Shown here piece by piece: positions 13,391 through 59,157 of a DNA stretch of 64,000 nucleotides (position 1 is the first letter of the stretch; every line of letters begins with the position of its first letter). Under the pieces are notes generated by a model. That model was not told where the DNA came from. It saw only the letters and a list, made by a program, of their open reading frames with translations, and searched no databases. The translations under genes were made by a program, and so were the position numbers. Origin of the DNA: Cereibacter ovatus (GTDB taxonomy: Bacteria; Pseudomonadota; Alphaproteobacteria; Rhodobacterales; Rhodobacteraceae); assembly GCF_900207575.1 (NCBI RefSeq), contig NZ_OAOQ01000002.1:362587-426586 (forward strand), in the 5' to 3' direction.

Positions 13391-13405
13391 TTAAGCACTG
13401 GTTAA
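13391..13405 (+). promoter_or_regulatory. CtrA box (TTAA-N7-TTAA) upstream of cckA
   Basis: TTAA at 13391-13394, seven bases, then TTAA at 13402-13405: a perfect match to the full CtrA site known from alphaproteobacteria. It ends 18 bases before the cckA start used here. TTAA is rare in this GC-rich DNA, which lowers the chance of a random match. Confidence 0.6.
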
Positions 13406-50114: not shown

Positions 50115-51500
50115 TCAGGCGGCAGCCGACTGGCCTATGGTCACCTGATTGCGTCCGCCCGATTTCGCCATCAACAGCGCACTGTCGGCGCGGTTGATGA
50201 CCTCGGCCACCGGCTCCAGCCGGCGGGGATCGCCCTTGCCCGAAAAGGCAAGCCCGATCGAGACCGTCACCCCCAGCGTGCCGCCGGCCGGCAAGGGCAC
50301 CGGCTTTTCCTCGATCGCCTGCCGCAGCCGTTCGGCGATGGCCTGTGCTTCCTCGGGGCGGTGGACATCGGGCAGGGCGACAAGGAATTCCTCGCCGCCG
50401 ATCCGCGCCAGCAGGTCGCCCGGGCGCAGGTTGGCATGCAGCCTGCGCGCCACATCCACCAGCACCGCATCGCCCGCGCCATGGCCCCAGCGGTCGTTCA
50501 CCGTCTTGAAGCGGTCGAGGTCGATCACCATCACCGCAAAACGCCCGCCGGTGGTCTGTGTCCGCTCCGCCACCGCCGCCAGATGGGCGCCGGCATAGCG
50601 GCGGTTGTAAAGCCCGGTCAGCGGATCGACCACCGCCAGCCGCAACCCGTTCTGAAGCGTTGCGCGCTGCCGGTCGGCCCGACGCTTGCGCAGCATCAGG
50701 TTGCGCAGCCGGATCCGCGCTTCGCGCGGGTCGAACTCGGTGCCCAGCAGATCGTTGGCGCCCAGATCGAAGGCCATTGCCGCGGCTTCGCCCTGCAACT
50801 CGCCACGCACGATGCAGACCGCGGCATGGCGCGTGCCCGCCCGGCTGCGCAGTTCCGACATCAGCCGCAGCCCGCCGCCCGGGCCGCCCAGATCGCCCTC
50901 GACCAGAAAGATGTCGGCAAGGGGGGCGGTTTCGTCCAGCGCCTCTTCTCGGGTCAGGAAGACCAGACGATCCGCCATCAGCGGCTGAAGATCCTTGCGC
51001 CAGCGCATTGCGGTTTCGGCCCGGCTGGCGACCAGCGCGATGGTGCCGGGGCCGTCGAAGCCCTCGCCATCCTCGGCCAGACCCAGCGCACGCAGCGCCG
51101 CACCCCGCACCGCGATTTCGCCGGTGCCGTCCTTCAGCCGCAACAGGCTGCGCAGCCGCGCCATCAGCACCGGATCATCCATCGGCTTGGCCAGATAGTC
51201 GTCGGCACCCGCATCCAGCGCCTGAAGGCGAACCTCGGGGTCTTTCGAGGTCGAGACGATCACCACCGGGATCTCGTGCGTCAGCGGGTCCGACCGCAGC
51301 CGGTGCAGCACCTCGATCCCGGACATGTCGGGCAGCATCAGGTCAAGCAGGATCAGATCCGGCACCTCTGCCCGGGCAAGGGCGAGGCAACTGGCCCCGT
51401 CCGCCGCCAGAAGCGGGCGGTAGCAGGCCGCCCCGAGCTTGACCTTTAGAACGATGCGGTTGGTCGCAACGTCATCCGCGATGAGAACCTTGCCGGCCAT
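50115..51500 (-). CDS. pleD: PleD-type response regulator diguanylate cyclase
   Basis: A 461-residue protein: receiver with Asp53 (ILLDLMLPDMSG), a second receiver-like domain (about 150-270) and a GGDEF domain with GGEEF at 368-372. The inhibitory site RPGD is at 359-362, so the layout matches PleD of Caulobacter in order and spacing. It makes c-di-GMP when phosphorylated; the kinase is not in the window. Divergent from DUF3572, a common neighbour of pleD/divK in alphaproteobacteria; divK is not here. Confidence 0.93.
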   Translation of the reverse strand: MAGKVLIADDVATNRIVLKVKLGAACYRPLLAADGASCLALARAEVPDLILLDLMLPDMSGIEVLHRLRSDPLTHEIPVVIVSTSKDPEVRLQALDAGADDYLAKPMDDPVLMARLRSLLRLKDGTGEIAVRGAALRALGLAEDGEGFDGPGTIALVASRAETAMRWRKDLQPLMADRLVFLTREEALDETAPLADIFLVEGDLGGPGGGLRLMSELRSRAGTRHAAVCIVRGELQGEAAAMAFDLGANDLLGTEFDPREARIRLRNLMLRKRRADRQRATLQNGLRLAVVDPLTGLYNRRYAGAHLAAVAERTQTTGGRFAVMVIDLDRFKTVNDRWGHGAGDAVLVDVARRLHANLRPGDLLARIGGEEFLVALPDVHRPEEAQAIAERLRQAIEEKPVPLPAGGTLGVTVSIGLAFSGKGDPRRLEPVAEVINRADSALLMAKSGGRNQVTIGQSAAA

Positions 51501-52705: not shown

Positions 52706-52859
52706 CCCGGCGCTGCCGCGGACATGGGCCGGCGTGCCTCGGGGCGGACGGGGGGCGGTGTCTGTGCGACATGGCTGCCAGCATCTGGTCCCGCCCGGTC
52801 ATTCACGTTAGCGTCGCCGGCGCCGGCAGGGTCGGCGTCAGCGGCGGGTGAGTGCAGGC

Positions 52860-54581
52860 ATGGAGCGGAACAATCTTCAGCGGCTGACGATGGCCAGTAT
52901 CGGCGGCCTTGCCGGGGTCAGCCTGCATATGCTGTCTGGCCTGCTGGCGCATCCCCTTCTGCCCGAGTGGCTGGCACTTGCCGCGACCGGTTTTGCCGCG
53001 GTCTTTTTCGGCGGCTGGCTGGGGCTGGCGGGGCCGCTGCCTTTGGCGCGGGCTGCGCTTGGTGCGGCGGGTGTGGCGGTCATGGTGGCCTGTTTCGTGC
53101 TGCTGGCCAGCCTGCGTGTCTACCGGATCGAAAGCCTGTTCATGATGCGGGGGGTGGCGCTGTCCACACTGGCGTTGGCCACGGTGCCGCTGCCGTTTCT
53201 GGTCGCGCGGGCCGGTGGGCGGTGGCTTGACTATCCGGTCTTGTTCACTGCCGCCTGGGGTCTTGCCGTCCGGGCTGCGGCTGCGGTTCTGTTTGCGCTG
53301 GTGGTCTGGGCGTTCGTCCTGCTGTCGTCCGAAGTGCTGGCGCTGGCCGGAATTGCCGCGGCCGAGCGTGTCGTCTCGTCCGGTCCCGTGCCCTGGGCGA
53401 TCAGCGGGCTGGCGGTCGGCCTGGGTCTTGCGGTGGTGTCGGAACATGTCGAGCTGATCGCGCCCGACCTGATCCTGCGGCTGCTGCGTCTGCTGTTGCC
53501 GCCCGCGTTGCTGGTGATCGCGCTGTTCACCCTGCTGTTGCCGCTGCGCGGGATGGAGACGGTCTTTTCCGGCATGTCGGCCGCCGGGACGCTGATCGCG
53601 ATGGCCGCGCTTGGGGCGACGCTGGTCAGCATCGCGGTCGATCGCAGCGACGCCGAGGCCGCGCAGGGGCCGGTGATGGGTCGCGCCACGCCGGCGCTGG
53701 CGCTGATCCTGCCTGTGCCGGGTGTGTTGGCGGCATGGGCGCTGTGGCTGCGGGTCGATCAGTATGGCTGGACGCCAGACCGTCTGGCGGGGGCGCTGGC
53801 GGCGGTTCTGGCGCTGGGCTACGGGCTGGTCTATGCGGCGGCGGTGCTGCGCGGGCGGGGCTGGCGGATGCGCATCCGGCGCGGCAATATCGGTATGGCC
53901 TTTATGGCGCTGACGCTTGCGGGCCTGTGGCTGACGCCGGTGCTGGATGCCACGCGGATCTCGGCGCGCGATCAGCTTCGGCGGTTTCAGGACGGGCGGA
54001 CGGCGGTGGCAGATCTGGATGTGACCTCGATCGGGCGCTGGGGCCGCGAAGGGGCCGCGGCACTGGCAGCATTGCGCCGGATCGCCGGTCAGCCGGGACA
54101 AGAGGCGCTGGCCGCCCGCCTTGCCGGTGCGGCCGACCCCGGCCCCGCACAGGAAGCCGCCGATCTGGCGGCCGAGATCGCGCGCCTGACCGCGGTTCGC
54201 CCGCCTGAAGCGGCCGGTTTCCGCGATGCCATCGTTGCCCGCCTGTCGGGGCCGGAACGCCGGATCTGGCGTGACGGCTGCCTTGTGCGGCTGCCGGACG
54301 GGCGGCCCGGCTGCGTCATGCTGGTGGCCGATTTCCTGCCCGAGCAGCCGGGGGACGAGGCGCTTCTGCTGACGCTGACCCGGCGTGGCGGGCTTGATCC
54401 GCGCGGCTATGCGCTGCCCGACGGGCGGCTTGAGACGCTGGCCGTGCGGGGCCTTGGCGCCGATCTTGCCGGCGATCCGGCGGCGCTGGTGGCCGCGGTC
54501 CTTGACCAGGTGCCCGAGGTGACGCCTGCGCCGCTGAACCGGCTGCGGCTGGGGGGCGGGTCGGTCGTGCTGCTGCCCTGA
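52860..54581 (+). CDS. DUF4153 family membrane protein
   Basis: A 573-residue protein. About twelve hydrophobic segments fill residues 10-370 and a soluble domain of about 200 residues follows (EGAAALAALRRIAG, then LPDGRPGCVMLVADFLPEQPGDEALLLTL). The membrane part and the conserved pattern around FVLLSSEVLALAG match DUF4153. Function unknown. An upstream in-frame GTG at 52848 is an alternative start. Confidence 0.85.
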   Translation: MERNNLQRLTMASIGGLAGVSLHMLSGLLAHPLLPEWLALAATGFAAVFFGGWLGLAGPLPLARAALGAAGVAVMVACFVLLASLRVYRIESLFMMRGVALSTLALATVPLPFLVARAGGRWLDYPVLFTAAWGLAVRAAAAVLFALVVWAFVLLSSEVLALAGIAAAERVVSSGPVPWAISGLAVGLGLAVVSEHVELIAPDLILRLLRLLLPPALLVIALFTLLLPLRGMETVFSGMSAAGTLIAMAALGATLVSIAVDRSDAEAAQGPVMGRATPALALILPVPGVLAAWALWLRVDQYGWTPDRLAGALAAVLALGYGLVYAAAVLRGRGWRMRIRRGNIGMAFMALTLAGLWLTPVLDATRISARDQLRRFQDGRTAVADLDVTSIGRWGREGAAALAALRRIAGQPGQEALAARLAGAADPGPAQEAADLAAEIARLTAVRPPEAAGFRDAIVARLSGPERRIWRDGCLVRLPDGRPGCVMLVADFLPEQPGDEALLLTLTRRGGLDPRGYALPDGRLETLAVRGLGADLAGDPAALVAAVLDQVPEVTPAPLNRLRLGGGSVVLLP

Positions 54582-54644
54582 AGCTGTTCTGCTTTTGTTA
54601 ATCGGCGGGCGCTAGGCTTCTTCGGGAATCGGAGGGGTCCGGGG

Positions 54645-55232
54645 ATGCATGGCTTGGTGAACAGGGCGATCCAGTGCTTTCTGCGCGATACCTATGGCGC
54701 CGACCTATGGGCCGATGTCGCCCGGGACGCGCGGCTTGGCTTCGACAGTTTCGAAGCCATGCTGACCTATGACCTGTCGCAGACCGAAGCGGTGATCCGC
54801 GCCGCCTGCTTCCGCCTTGTCAAGCCGCGCGATGCCCTGCTTGAGGATCTGGGAACCTATCTCGTCTCGCATCCGACGACCGAACCCCTGCGCCGCCTGC
54901 TGCGCTTCGGCGGCGTCACCTTTACCGATTTTCTTTATTCCCTGGACGATCTGCCCGATCGCGCCCGGCTGGCCCTGCCGGAACTCGACCTGCCCGAACT
55001 TCAGCTGGTCGGCCTTGGCCCGCATCGGTTCCGGCTGGTCTGCGCCTCGCCCATGGAAGGGATGGGCCATGTCGCCGTGGGCCTGCTGCGGGCCATGGCC
55101 GACGATTACGGGGTGCTTGTGCTGCTGGACCACCGCGGGCACCGCCGCGAGGGCGAGGTGGTGTCGATCGCGCTTCTGGATTCGGCCTTTGCCGCCGGTC
55201 GCCCGTTCGATCTGGCCGAGCGGCTGGCCTGA
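54645..55232 (+). CDS. H-NOX-like protein lacking heme-ligand residues
   Basis: A 195-residue protein with the H-NOX (heme NO-binding) fold signature: MHGLVNRAIQCFLRDTYG at the N-terminus and FGGVTFTDFLYSLDDLP, with a C-terminal VAVGLLRAMADDYG. In active H-NOX a His near 102-105 binds heme; here the place is Pro104 (LDDLP). The YxSxR motif that holds the heme propionates reads Cys133-x-Ser135-x-Met137. It is thus probably heme-free or has a changed ligand set. It overlaps a cyclase gene by one base (TGATG). Confidence 0.85.
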   Translation: MHGLVNRAIQCFLRDTYGADLWADVARDARLGFDSFEAMLTYDLSQTEAVIRAACFRLVKPRDALLEDLGTYLVSHPTTEPLRRLLRFGGVTFTDFLYSLDDLPDRARLALPELDLPELQLVGLGPHRFRLVCASPMEGMGHVAVGLLRAMADDYGVLVLLDHRGHRREGEVVSIALLDSAFAAGRPFDLAERLA

Positions 55233-56239
55233 TGGGCAGCGTCGCCAAACCCGTCAACATCGGCGCCGGGGGGCTTGACCTTCTGATGCCGATGCATGTC
55301 CGGGTCGATCCGCAGGGCCGCATTTCGGGCTGCGGGCCGACGCTGGGAAAGCTGCTGACTGCGCCGCCTCTGGGCCGCCCGTTCTTTGACCTGTTCGAGG
55401 TCCGGCGCCCTGCCGGGATCGCGACGCCGGCCGCGCTGGCCGATCGCACCGGCACGCGGCTGCATCTGGCCTTGCGCGATGGCGGTGGCGCCAGCCTGCG
55501 GGGTGTCGCGACCCCGCTGCATGACGGCCGCGGGCTGCTGCTGAACCTGTCCTTCGGGATTTCCGTGCTTGACGCGGTGCGCCGCCACGGCCTGACCGAT
55601 GGCGATTTTGCCGCGACCGACCTGACGGTGGAGCTGCTTTATCTGGTCGAGGCCAAGACCGCGGTGACGGACGAGCTGCATCGCCTGAACCGTCGCCTCG
55701 AAGAGGCCCGTCGCGCAGCCGAGCATGAGGCCCTGACCGATACGCTGACCAGTCTGCGCAATCGCCGCGCGTTCGAACAGACATCCGAGGCGCTGATCGC
55801 TGTCCGCCAGCCGTTCGGGCTGATGCATCTGGATCTCGATCACTTCAAGGCGGTGAACGATACGCTGGGCCATGCGGCAGGCGATCATGTGTTGCGAACG
55901 GTGGCCCGGGTGCTGCTGCGCGAGACGCGCGCCGGCGACATGGTGGCGCGGGTCGGCGGCGACGAATTCATGATGATCTTTCCCGGCCTTGCCGATCCCG
56001 CCCGAATGCGACGGGTGGCCGAGCGGATGATCTCGGGTGTGGCGCTGCCGGTTCCGTTCGAGGGGCAGTTGTGCCGCGTCACGGCCAGCATCGGCATGAC
56101 GCTTTCCGTATTCTACGAAGCGCCGGCGCTTGACGCGATGCTGGCAGATGCCGATGGCGCGCTTTATGCTGCCAAGCGGGCTGGGCGTGGTATCGCCGTG
56201 CTGGCGAACCCGGGGTGCAGCAGCGTCCGACGCGCTTGA
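55232..56239 (+). CDS. Diguanylate cyclase with H-NOX-associated (HNOBA) domain
   Basis: A 335-residue protein. Residues 1-115 resemble the H-NOXA/HNOBA PAS-like domain (HVRVDPQGRISGCGPTL, LGRPFFDLFEVRRP, LRGVATPLHDGRGLLLNLSFG). A helical linker (130-165, with LVEAKTAVTDELHRLN) leads to a GGDEF domain with GGDEF at 242-246 and an inhibitory-site RAGD at 233-236. It should make c-di-GMP from GTP. Co-translated with an H-NOX-like partner that would control it. Confidence 0.92.
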   Translation: MGSVAKPVNIGAGGLDLLMPMHVRVDPQGRISGCGPTLGKLLTAPPLGRPFFDLFEVRRPAGIATPAALADRTGTRLHLALRDGGGASLRGVATPLHDGRGLLLNLSFGISVLDAVRRHGLTDGDFAATDLTVELLYLVEAKTAVTDELHRLNRRLEEARRAAEHEALTDTLTSLRNRRAFEQTSEALIAVRQPFGLMHLDLDHFKAVNDTLGHAAGDHVLRTVARVLLRETRAGDMVARVGGDEFMMIFPGLADPARMRRVAERMISGVALPVPFEGQLCRVTASIGMTLSVFYEAPALDAMLADADGALYAAKRAGRGIAVLANPGCSSVRRA

Positions 56240-56519: not shown

Positions 56520-57521
56520 ATGTTGGACGTTGCGATCTTCAGTGCCAAACCCCATGACCGCCAGTTCCTGTCCGCGGCCAATGCCGGGCGGCACCGGCTT
56601 GCCTTCATCGAGGCGCGCCTGTCGGAAGAGACGGTGCGCTTTGCCGGTGGGGCGGCCTGCGTCTGCGCTTTCGTGAACGATCAGGTGACGGCGCCGGTGA
56701 TCCGGGAACTGGCCGCGGCGGGCACGCGGCTGATCGCGCTGCGCTCGGCCGGGTTCAACCATGTCGATCTGACCGCGGCCGAGTCGGCTGGCCTTGCCGT
56801 GGGCCGGGTGCCGGCCTATTCGCCCCATGCGGTTGCGGAACATGCGGTTGCGCTGATCCTGACCCTGAACCGCAACATCCACCGCGCTTTCAACCGCGTG
56901 CGCGAGGGCAATTTCGCGCTGGATGGGCTGCTGGGCTTCGATCTTTGCGGCAAGACGGTGGGTGTGGTGGGCACCGGCCTGATCGGGCGCACCTTCGCCG
57001 GCATCATGCGGGGGTTTGGCTGCCGGGTGATCGCCTTCGATCCGTTCCCGTCCGAAGCCTGCACCGCGATGGGTGTGACCTATGTGCCGCTGGACGAGCT
57101 GTTCGCCACCGCCGACATCATCAGCCTGCAATGCCCGCTGACCCCCGAGACGCACCATCTGATCGATGACGAGGCCATCGCAAAGATGAAGCGCGGGGTG
57201 ATGATCGTGAACACCAGTCGCGGTGCGGTGGTCGATGCCAGCGCCGTGATCCGCGGGTTGAAAAGCGGCGCCATCGGCGCGCTGGGTCTTGATGTCTACG
57301 AGGAAGAGGCCGACCTGTTTTTCGAGGATCTGTCGCAGACCGCCATTCAGGACGATGTCTTTGCCCGCCTGCTGACCTTCCCGAACGTGGTGATCACCGG
57401 CCATCAGGCCTTTTTCACCCGCGAGGCGCTGAACGGGATCGCCTGCACCACCATCGCCAACATCACCGCATTTGAGGAAACCGGCAGCGTCGTCCATCCG
57501 GTCTTGCCGCCGCGGGGTTAG
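56520..57521 (+). CDS. ldhA: D-2-hydroxyacid dehydrogenase (fermentative D-lactate dehydrogenase type)
   Basis: A 333-residue NAD-dependent dehydrogenase. The Rossmann motif is [14 protein letters not shown], Arg in [11 protein letters not shown], Glu in [15 protein letters not shown] and His in [13 protein letters not shown]; the -FFED-S- segment and length match the E. coli LdhA-like group that reduces pyruvate to D-lactate. ATG at 56520 behind AAGGAG is preferred to two earlier ATGs. Monocistronic; convergent with pxpC. Confidence 0.9.
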
Positions 57522-58513
57522 CCGCGCGCATCCACCACACCGCCGATCAGGTTCGCCTGCGCCAGTCGCTGGCCCAGATCGCGCGGCCCGGCCAGCGCGG
57601 CAAGCCGTGTCATTCGCGCTTCGTGAATGGCTCGGGCGGTCCGAACGGCCTGATCGGGGCGGATCGCCGTGAAATGCAGCACCTCGTCCGGGCGCATCTG
57701 GGCCAGCGCATCAAGATCGGGGCCGATCACGGTGGCGATCTTGGGATAGCCGCCGGTCGTCTGGTGATCGGCCATCAGCACCGTCGCCACCCCGTCGCCC
57801 GAGACCTGAACCGACCCGCGCAGCACCGGCTCGGATGGCATGTCCAGCGCATTGGGCAGCAGCCGCGGCCCGTCCAGTCGCTGCCCCATCCGGTCGCGCG
57901 CGGCCGAGACGCGGAAGGGCTGCGACAGCAGCGCCTGCATGGCCTCGGGTGCGAAAAACCGCTGTTGCGGACCGATCACCACCCGCAGGTGGCCGTCAGG
58001 GCGGGGCGGGGGATCGAACGGGCCGTGCCGCTCGGGGCGCAGGGCGGTGTCGGTGACCTCAAGCTCTGTCCCCGGCTGTAACAGCCCCGCCCCCAGCCCC
58101 GAGGCGGCATGCGTCGCCGCCGAGCCCAGCCATGACGGCACCCCCAGCCGCCCGGCCAGCGCAAGCACCGCCCAGTTGCCCCAGTCGCCCGGGCGCAGCG
58201 CCAGCCTGTCGCCCGCGCGCAGGGGAAAGACGCCGGCGCCTTCGCGGGTCACGCCCGCGCAGGTGGCGCGGAAGCCGCCGCCCGCCAGCGCAACCGAAAG
58301 CGCCCCCGACAGACAGTCCAGCACCAGCCCCGCGGGCGGGATTTCCAGCGCCGCGGTGCCGTCCGGGTTGCCCAGTGCCGCATTGGCCATCGCGAAGGCC
58401 AGCCGGTCCATCGGCCCGGATTGCGGCACGCCAAAGCGCATCAGGCCCGGCCGTCCACCGTCCTGAACCGAAGCCAGCGGCCCGGCGTCAACAATGCGCA
58501 ACCGGGCGATCAT
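57518..58513 (-). CDS. pxpC: 5-oxoprolinase subunit C (PxpC, biotin-dependent carboxyltransferase family)
   Basis: A 331-residue protein of the KipA/PxpC group, homologous to urea amidolyase. Visible segments: [53 protein letters not shown] and [22 protein letters not shown]. With PxpA and PxpB it hydrolyses 5-oxoproline to glutamate using ATP. It overlaps pxpB by 4 bases. Confidence 0.94.
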
Positions 58514-59157
58514 AGGGTGCCGATGCGGCGGAACCGCACGCTGTCGCCCGCGTCGAACAGGAAGGGGTGCACCGGATCGCCGGTCAGGATGCGCACCGGC
58601 GAGCGGCCTATGATCCACCAGCCGGTCGGCATCGTCAGTGTCGATACAAGGCACTGTGGCCCTGCGATCAACACGCTTCCCGCCGGAATATCGCGCAAGG
58701 CGCTGGGTTTGCGCGGCAGGTGCAGGGCTGCCGGCACACCGGCCAGATAGGCATAGCCGGGCGCGAAGCCATACATCACCACGCGGTAGCGGCCCTGAAG
58801 ATGGGCGGCGATCACCGCATTGGGGGCAAGGCCGGTGCGGGCGGCGACCTCGGGCAGATCCTGCCCGTCATAGCAGACCGGCACCTCATGCACCTGCGCG
58901 CGGCTGGCAGCTTCGGCCGGATGGGTCAGCAGGGCGCGCAGGGCGGCCTCGGCTGTGGCATGGTCGGTTGTCAGCGGGTCGAAGGCCACAAGCAGGCTGA
59001 CATAGGCGGGCACCGCCTCGGCAAAGCCGGCAAAGGGTGCCGCGGCCAGCGCCCGGTCAAGGGCCGCTACGGCGGCTTCGGCGGCCGGGTCGGGGGTTTC
59101 GGCAAATTCGACCAGCAAGGCACGCTCGGCCACGGGGCGGAAGCGGGGGAAGGTCAT
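58510..59157 (-). CDS. pxpB: 5-oxoprolinase subunit B (PxpB)
   Basis: A 215-residue protein of the allophanate hydrolase subunit 1/PxpB group: RPVAERALLVEFAETP, MYGFAPGYAYLAGVP, LPRKPSALRDIPAGSVLIAGPQ and MPTGWWIIGRSP. Works with PxpC; overlaps pxpA by 4 bases, so the three subunits are made together. Confidence 0.95.
   Translation of the reverse strand: MTFPRFRPVAERALLVEFAETPDPAAEAAVAALDRALAAAPFAGFAEAVPAYVSLLVAFDPLTTDHATAEAALRALLTHPAEAASRAQVHEVPVCYDGQDLPEVAARTGLAPNAVIAAHLQGRYRVVMYGFAPGYAYLAGVPAALHLPRKPSALRDIPAGSVLIAGPQCLVSTLTMPTGWWIIGRSPVRILTGDPVHPFLFDAGDSVRFRRIGTL

Follow-up and report, generated by a model that had tools for sequence, protein, structure and literature searches.

The hnoX gene of Cereibacter ovatus codes for a member of the Group 5 clade of H-NOX proteins which carries neither of the two canonical haem-ligand motifs. 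Its product is, somewhat likelier than otherwise in our estimate, a subunit that regulates, and probably inhibits, the GGDEF cyclase encoded by the adjacent gene dgc without depending on the His. This reading is drawn from the sequence, the clade, the linkage to the partner, purifying selection and the predicted fold. Both genes are located in a stretch of 64,000 nucleotides, the whole of which is here called the window; their features are compiled in Table 1.

Table 1. Features of the hnoX-dgc gene pair (positions within the window)
Feature	Position	Strand	Basis
Likely ribosome-binding site GGAGGGG, 7 bases ahead of the hnoX start	54631..54637	+	sequence reading, inference
hnoX, 195-aa His-less H-NOX protein, Group 5 clade member	54645..55232	+	ORF, Pfam and tree
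Codons of E67-D68 (hnoX)	54843..54848	+	160/160 in the clade; E67 in 3/32 and D68 in 1/32 canonical H-NOX
Codon of hinge Gly70 (hnoX)	54852..54854	+	160/160 in the clade, 32/32 canonical
Codons of R83-R84-L-L-R87, basic cluster of the clade (hnoX)	54891..54905	+	R87 in 160/160 of the clade, 3/32 canonical
Codon 104 CCC = Pro, replaces the proximal haem His (hnoX)	54954..54956	+	alignment to Nostoc H-NOX
C133-A-S135-P-M137, replaces Y-x-S-x-R (hnoX)	55041..55055	+	alignment, sequence
Codon of hinge Gly146 (hnoX)	55080..55082	+	160/160 in the clade, 32/32 canonical
TGATG, hnoX stop and dgc start, one-base overlap	55230..55234	+	sequence; close arrangement conserved
dgc, 335 aa: HNOBA-like N-terminal domain, long helix (aa 131-172), GGDEF	55232..56239	+	ORF, Pfam, model
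I-site R233-x-x-D236 (dgc)	55928..55939	+	invariant over 59 aligned partners
GGDEF active-site motif, aa 242-246 (dgc)	55955..55969	+	Pfam, 59-partner alignment

With 74.9 bits at a curated cut-off of 25.5, the hnoX product belongs to the Pfam family HNOB (PF07700), and it is the single HNOB match in the 3.8 Mb genome. Codons 104 (CCC), 133 (TGC) and 137 (ATG) specify Pro, Cys and Met, with Ser at 135, and the residues H105, Y134, S136 and R138 of the Nostoc H-NOX align with Pro104, C133, S135 and M137. Codon reading and alignment agree with each other and with the earlier note, which had described an H-NOX-like protein with Pro104 and a Cys-x-Ser-x-Met motif. Neither the proximal His on helix F nor YxSxR, the two hallmarks of canonical NO sensing by haem, is present. 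The absence of the haem ligands is thus borne out at the sequence level and, furthermore, is general across the clade, where YxSxR is found in none of 160 members. Of 30 canonical rows, by contrast, 29 have the motif; these rows include Nostoc and contain one locus (L031 = L198) twice. The Pro104 protein of the window itself presumably carries no haem.

The stretch LDDLPDRARLA is also found in four further species of the genus, represented by one genome apiece (loci L012, L013, L018 and L020). L013 is from Cereibacter johrii, a genus mate of the window host, and L012 we take to be the homologue of R. sphaeroides 2.4.1. Since these four genus mates concur, a single-strain loss or a sequencing error behind Pro104 was discarded. 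The retention of His104 by orthologues in the genus had been set as a test by the earlier note: His is absent in all four, and the 18 of 160 clade members carrying it lie outside the genus. Of the three exchanged residues, whose conservation the earlier note proposed to check, Pro104 is kept in four of four genus mates and 125 of 160 clade members. Cys133 occurs in only 99 of 160 and elsewhere gives way to Val, Leu, Ser, Ile or further residues, and position 137 varies widely.

These counts come from 191 sampled loci, 190 of which yielded an H-NOX frame; with further loci and two Paracoccus records added, the clade set comprises 160 distinct proteins. The one exception (L117; G298:C24:241161-241622) is an H-NOX copy whose score is that of Group 5 proteins but whose frame is interrupted by one TAA, possibly a pseudogene or a sequencing error, and enters none of the counts. 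Nine residue types occupy position 104 (Pro 125, His 18, Gln 5, Arg 4, Asn 3, Gly 2, and Asp, Ala and Glu one each), in a sample which is uneven because the 80 loci nearest the query are rich in Pro and part of the rest, chosen by high or low score, is rich in His. For comparison, a subset of 55 distinct proteins from part of the sampling routes has 43 Pro, 4 His and 8 other residues at 104, and the share of His in Group 5 was published as below 10% (PMC8738867). All four Pro codons are used at this position (CCG 56, CCC 46, CCT 13, CCA 10), and therefore Pro itself seems to be kept there.

HNOB matches of either kind were found in 221 of 295 genomes of the family (220 of 294 genera), with two matches in 21 rows. 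When 196 genomes of the order were searched with a profile built from 12 clade members, 161 gave a match at E <= 0.001, including at least two weak matches (G321 and G333), of which G321 is canonical. With a profile of 12 clade members applied to 385 genomes of the class at E <= 1e-20, 8 genomes were retrieved. Five of them belong to the family, the window's own and the canonical G321 included; the three from outside are canonical proteins with His and YxSxR.

In a tree of 190 rows, calculated with column 104 omitted and leaving out repeat loci and the two long branches L028 and L162, 159 clade rows fall on one side of a branch with an SH-aLRT support of 99. The same clade (152 rows, support 99) was obtained in an earlier tree in which column 104 was kept. 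Both the P. denitrificans protein (L207, Pro104) and L192 are located inside the clade. L192 has kept His104 but lacks YxSxR; it is probably the HNOX of Dinoroseobacter shibae, an assignment of ours which the gene position, fitting Dshi_2815, agrees with. The window protein shows the features by which Group 5 is recognised, namely Pro104, grouping with L207 away from the His/YxSxR proteins, no conserved Cys and kept hinge glycines. Between His and non-His states 12 changes are required inside the clade on the 190-row tree; on the earlier tree the His label changes 12 times over all rows, five of these being forced by well-supported branches. Repeated change between His and non-His in the clade is therefore likely, but the exact number is not firm, because both trees are quick ones, with some half of their inner branches supported below 80 (85 of 178 in the earlier and 94 of 187 in the 190-row tree). 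As far as sampled, YxSxR appears to be absent throughout the clade, with His104 coming and going. Given such repeated switching, a single base change might, in a reading that we consider rather unlikely, turn a form that senses NO into one blind to it or back. A loss outside Group 5 was observed as well: L113, which groups with the canonical H-NOX proteins and shares with them the Tyr that opens YxSxR, carries Gln in place of the proximal His.

Other residues do not vary at all. E67, D68, G70, W22, R87, G146 and D153 are shared without exception by the 18 His and the 142 non-His members. Of these, E67, D68, R87 and D153 are rare among the 32 canonical proteins (D153 in 6; for the others see Table 1), whereas all 32 have the two hinge glycines. 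Across the clade, the putative output side would thus be constant and the haem-ligand side free. For the canonical proteins, a hinge role of glycines of the G70/G146 type is described, as is contact to the kinase through helices A-C and F (PMC7108781). Purifying selection is also evident from the nucleotide sequences: dN/dS of hnoX is 0.15-0.21 when the window gene is compared with that of three genus mates and 0.03-0.21 in 12 of 13 pairs overall (one saturated); for dgc it is 0.12-0.25 in 10 of 13 pairs (three saturated).

For the neighbouring gene, the earlier note had claimed a one-base overlap with hnoX, an HNOBA-GGDEF product with intact active and inhibitory sites, and a domain partnership that was kept. 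The overlap is read directly from the sequence (hnoX stop TGA at 55230-55232, dgc start ATG at 55232-55234). The GGDEF assignment stands (132.3 bits), and none of the residues R233, D236 and G242-F246 varies in an alignment of 59 partners, to which that of the window belongs; RxxD constitutes the I-site of GGDEF cyclases. The HNOBA assignment needs a qualification: 19.2 bits is below the Pfam cut-off of 23.4, though E <= 0.01 is reached in 51 of the 59 partners, again including that of the window. When the N-terminal half of the cyclase was searched by sequence against solved structures, only one match at chance level (E 0.71) was returned.

The partnership itself is conserved. A GGDEF gene is located directly downstream of hnoX in 169 of 172 clade loci, a number including some genomes fetched by two routes, whereas among 29 canonical loci from the family, one of them entered twice (L031/L198), 4 have a GGDEF neighbour within the approximately 1.5-2.5 kb that were covered to each side, or within less where the contig ends. 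Two of the remaining three clade loci, L079 and L120, have no GGDEF in a stretch which probably ends there, and the third is a fusion. This natural fusion (L200) is a 528-aa frame with matches to HNOB (103.1 bits), HNOBA (16.2 bits, below the cut-off) and GGDEF (144.8 bits); it has kept His, together with Y-x-F-x-K. The nearest dgc start codon lies inside hnoX by 4 bases in 84 loci and by 1 base in 32 loci, where taking the start codon nearest the hnoX stop leans towards overlaps.

The AlphaFold model of the hnoX product (pLDDT 89.4) has the H-NOX fold and superimposes on the Nostoc protein (2o09_A) with Z 21.5 and rmsd 2.3 over 178 residues. Among human sGC beta1 structures, the NO-activated forms (8hbf_B, Z 22.1, rmsd 2.1; 8hbh_B, 21.9; 6jt2_B, 21.3) score above the inactive ones (8hbe_B, Z 20.8, rmsd 2.4; 6jt0_B, 20.3, rmsd 2.4). 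For insect sGC the values are Z 17.5 (active, 6pat_B) and 16.9 (inactive, 6pas_B), for the compact 9oxn_B and the extended 9p2r_B 19.2 and 12.7, and for S. oneidensis 19.8 in the NO form, 19.7 unliganded, 16.4 in the H103G mutant and 16.6 in the wild type. The predicted structure may hence be slightly nearer to the NO-activated than to the inactive human protein, a faint tendency made up of near ties and mixed elsewhere. The dgc model (pLDDT 91.5) consists of an N-terminal alpha/beta domain, a helix comprising residues 131-172 and a GGDEF domain matching PleD (Z 22.7); its PDB re-ranking was filled by GGDEF domains, with the HNOBA half barely probed.

The neighbourhood of hnoX appears to be partly conserved, because a homologue of the DUF4153-like gene is present somewhere in 36 of the 80 H-NOX loci nearest the query; a homologue of the HAD-type gene is present in 50 of these 80. 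In the window, hnoX is directly preceded by a gene (52848-54581, + strand) whose 577-aa product matches DUF4153 below the threshold. A few genes from dgc, at 50115-51500 on the - strand, a PleD-like response regulator with GGDEF is encoded, scoring 369.5 bits with the PleD model, for which the equivalog cut-off is 474. Two adjacent genes at 57518-59157 (- strand) resemble, as we presume, subunits of bacterial 5-oxoprolinase (PxpC/PxpB type), with a PxpA/LamB-YcsF-like frame next to them on the same strand. A perfect TTAA-N7-TTAA, which we take to be a CtrA-like site, occurs at 13391-13405 (+ strand). A site of this type before hnoX was considered and rejected: with up to one mismatch the motif is found in the window only at 13391 and 16533, and 13 of 100 shuffles reach two occurrences.

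How could an H-NOX protein without proximal His control a cyclase? Most likely, it would bind the cyclase, to which it is closely coupled, at the HNOBA/long-helix region and keep the synthesis of cyclic-di-GMP down. The contact between the two would then be direct and its effect inhibitory, and both haem and a response to NO would be lacking. In the canonical case, NO breaks the iron-His bond and the two subdomains turn about the two hinge glycines into the active state; rupture of this bond is thought to be needed for canonical activation (PMC12329717). Here no iron-His bond is possible, and one of two things would be expected: the protein inhibits in an active-like state whether or not NO is present, or some ligand that is not His-bound haem does the switching. 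Because the bond whose rupture activates cannot form, the Pro protein may be permanently active-like. On the other hand, the kept hinge glycines and the proximal Pro117 suggest that the domain still moves, which counts against a purely fixed state.

For Paracoccus denitrificans, the hnoX mutant was reported to be partly biofilm-deficient and without BapA and the dgcAB mutant, in which both cyclases are gone, to overproduce biofilm and BapA; the authors infer that H-NOX inhibits DgcA, with NO as input (PMC5588039). As the protein concerned is the homologue L207, this shows that a Pro-type H-NOX matters in vivo. Cyclic-di-GMP was given as below detection in a later paper on this organism (PMC12582929). 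In D. shibae, NO-bound HNOX is reported to inhibit Dgc1 (PMC8846402, PMC7232146). That the signal has changed in the Pro form, as the earlier note inferred, is plausible from what the sequences offer; a fixed regulator without any signal is equally compatible. The genome of the window has two FIST and nine GGDEF matches, and NO could therefore enter by another route, the FIST family including NosP (PMC8738867).

Instead of haem, a different small molecule might occupy the cavity (a flavin, a tetrapyrrole without His ligation, a lipid or a metabolite), turn the hinge and control the cyclase, which we consider possible but rather unlikely. Such a ligand would fit with the constancy of G70 and G146 (160/160) and Pro117 (159/160), with the spelling of Pro104 by all four codons, and with the prevalence of Ile, Val, Leu, Met or Phe in the clade at positions 5, 9, 12, 13, 51, 65, 66, 69 and 73 (Nostoc Trp74), columns which were taken from the residues of apolar tunnel 1 in Nostoc H-NOX (PMC7356049). 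However, an apolar core is normal for any folded domain. Polar tunnel 2, moreover, is lost, position 48 (Nostoc Tyr49) being mostly Glu, Asp or Pro and position 140 (Leu141) mixed. No new polar set has taken the place of Y, S and R, as 133, 135 and 137 vary widely, and Q, R, N, G, D, A and E occur at position 104 as well. That a clade present in most sampled genomes of one family should have swapped haem for another cavity ligand, with hinge and cyclase interface kept, we likewise regard as doubtful; in that case the loss of the metal site would have adapted a gas sensor to a new signal. It is improbable that haem is still bound, loosely or via another residue, and NO still sensed as in the D. 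shibae His-keeper. The clade does hold a His-keeper, which is probably that reported haem-binding NO sensor, and NO is the input in the model of the P. denitrificans authors (PMC5588039), but the proximal His is gone in 142 and YxSxR in all 160 members. A conserved His that could serve as replacement ligand was looked for: His2 is present in 146 of 160 members, but it is as common with His104 (15 of 18) as without (131 of 142), does not have the look of a replacement ligand and was rejected as such.

Redox sensing through Cys133, suggested by the earlier note, or through a zinc-cysteine site as in the Vibrio cholerae H-NOX fares worse and is in our view very improbable. Position 133 is the commonest Cys column of the clade, and Cys11 occurs in 81 of 160 members; for other H-NOX proteins, moreover, redox activation in a haem-free form or through zinc-bound cysteines has been published (PMC7108781, PMC12329717). 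Yet Cys133 is missing in 61 of 160 members, and the 2022 review describes no conserved Cys in Group 5 (PMC8738867). C11, C55 and C133 are the sole cysteines of the window protein, and none lies past 133, where the zinc cysteines sit (C139, C164 and C172 in S. oneidensis; PMC7108781); the C-terminal set of three zinc-binding Cys and a His or Gln which characterises the zinc-site redox H-NOX is absent. Least credible of all is a decaying gene, kept merely by its place before dgc. One copy with an in-frame stop (L117, see above) would be expected under such decay, but the mutant phenotype in P. denitrificans (PMC5588039), dN/dS well below 1, the many near-invariant residues and HNOB matches in 220 of the 294 sampled genera of the family all argue against it. 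The reading as a His-independent regulatory subunit of the cyclase is the one we consider likeliest.

Compared with Group 5, the window protein is no different in kind but adds one more representative, whose host is closely related to R. sphaeroides. Kumar & Spiro 2017 (PMC5588039), citing Iyer 2003 and Plate & Marletta 2013, noted the absence of the His in R. sphaeroides and P. denitrificans, and Group 5 was named by 2022; the loss of His is thus already in print. As described by Lee-Lopez & Yukl 2022 (PMC8738867; type Pden_3719), Group 5 shares with the window protein the Pro in place of the proximal His, the lack of a strictly conserved Cys, the conserved hinge Gly and the GGDEF neighbour. 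The HNOX-Dgc1 system of D. shibae, if it is L192, belongs to the same clade and has the same operon layout, with a 4-base overlap to a gene for a 346-aa GGDEF protein. It has lost YxSxR too but, unlike the window protein, has His104; haem binding has been reported for it (Bedrunka 2018, via PMC7232146 and PMC8846402).

The canonical proteins (Nostoc alr2278, S. oneidensis, sGC beta1) share the predicted fold, but the proximal His and YxSxR are theirs and not those of the window protein. A haem-less H-NOX-like domain on a HNOBA/PAS-coiled-coil cyclase is also known from the N-terminus of sGC alpha. The match to it (7d9r_A) is weak, with Z 8.8 over 120 residues, and it belongs to a fused guanylate cyclase rather than to a separate GGDEF partner. 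Signalling without the NO-haem trigger has been described for the haem-free V. cholerae and the zinc-site C. crescentus H-NOX (PMC12329717, PMC7108781); these groups have a proximal His and zinc-bound Cys, which are absent here. In our literature search, which covered few subscription papers, no title or abstract opening announced a test of haem binding or cyclase control for the Pro form.

New in this work is the comparison at the level of the clade, comprising a probable His-keeping NO sensor, a fusion, and constant residues set against free ligand positions. How Group 5 proteins sense anything was asked in the 2022 review (PMC8738867), and this comparison makes the question testable within one clade: the His-keeper, probably from D. 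shibae, and the Pro members differ in the ligand position and have the clade-invariant residues in common. The fusion L200, furthermore, offers both partners in one chain for structural studies. Should there be a new ligand, an input into cyclic-di-GMP signalling would be explained for a large group of marine and soil bacteria.
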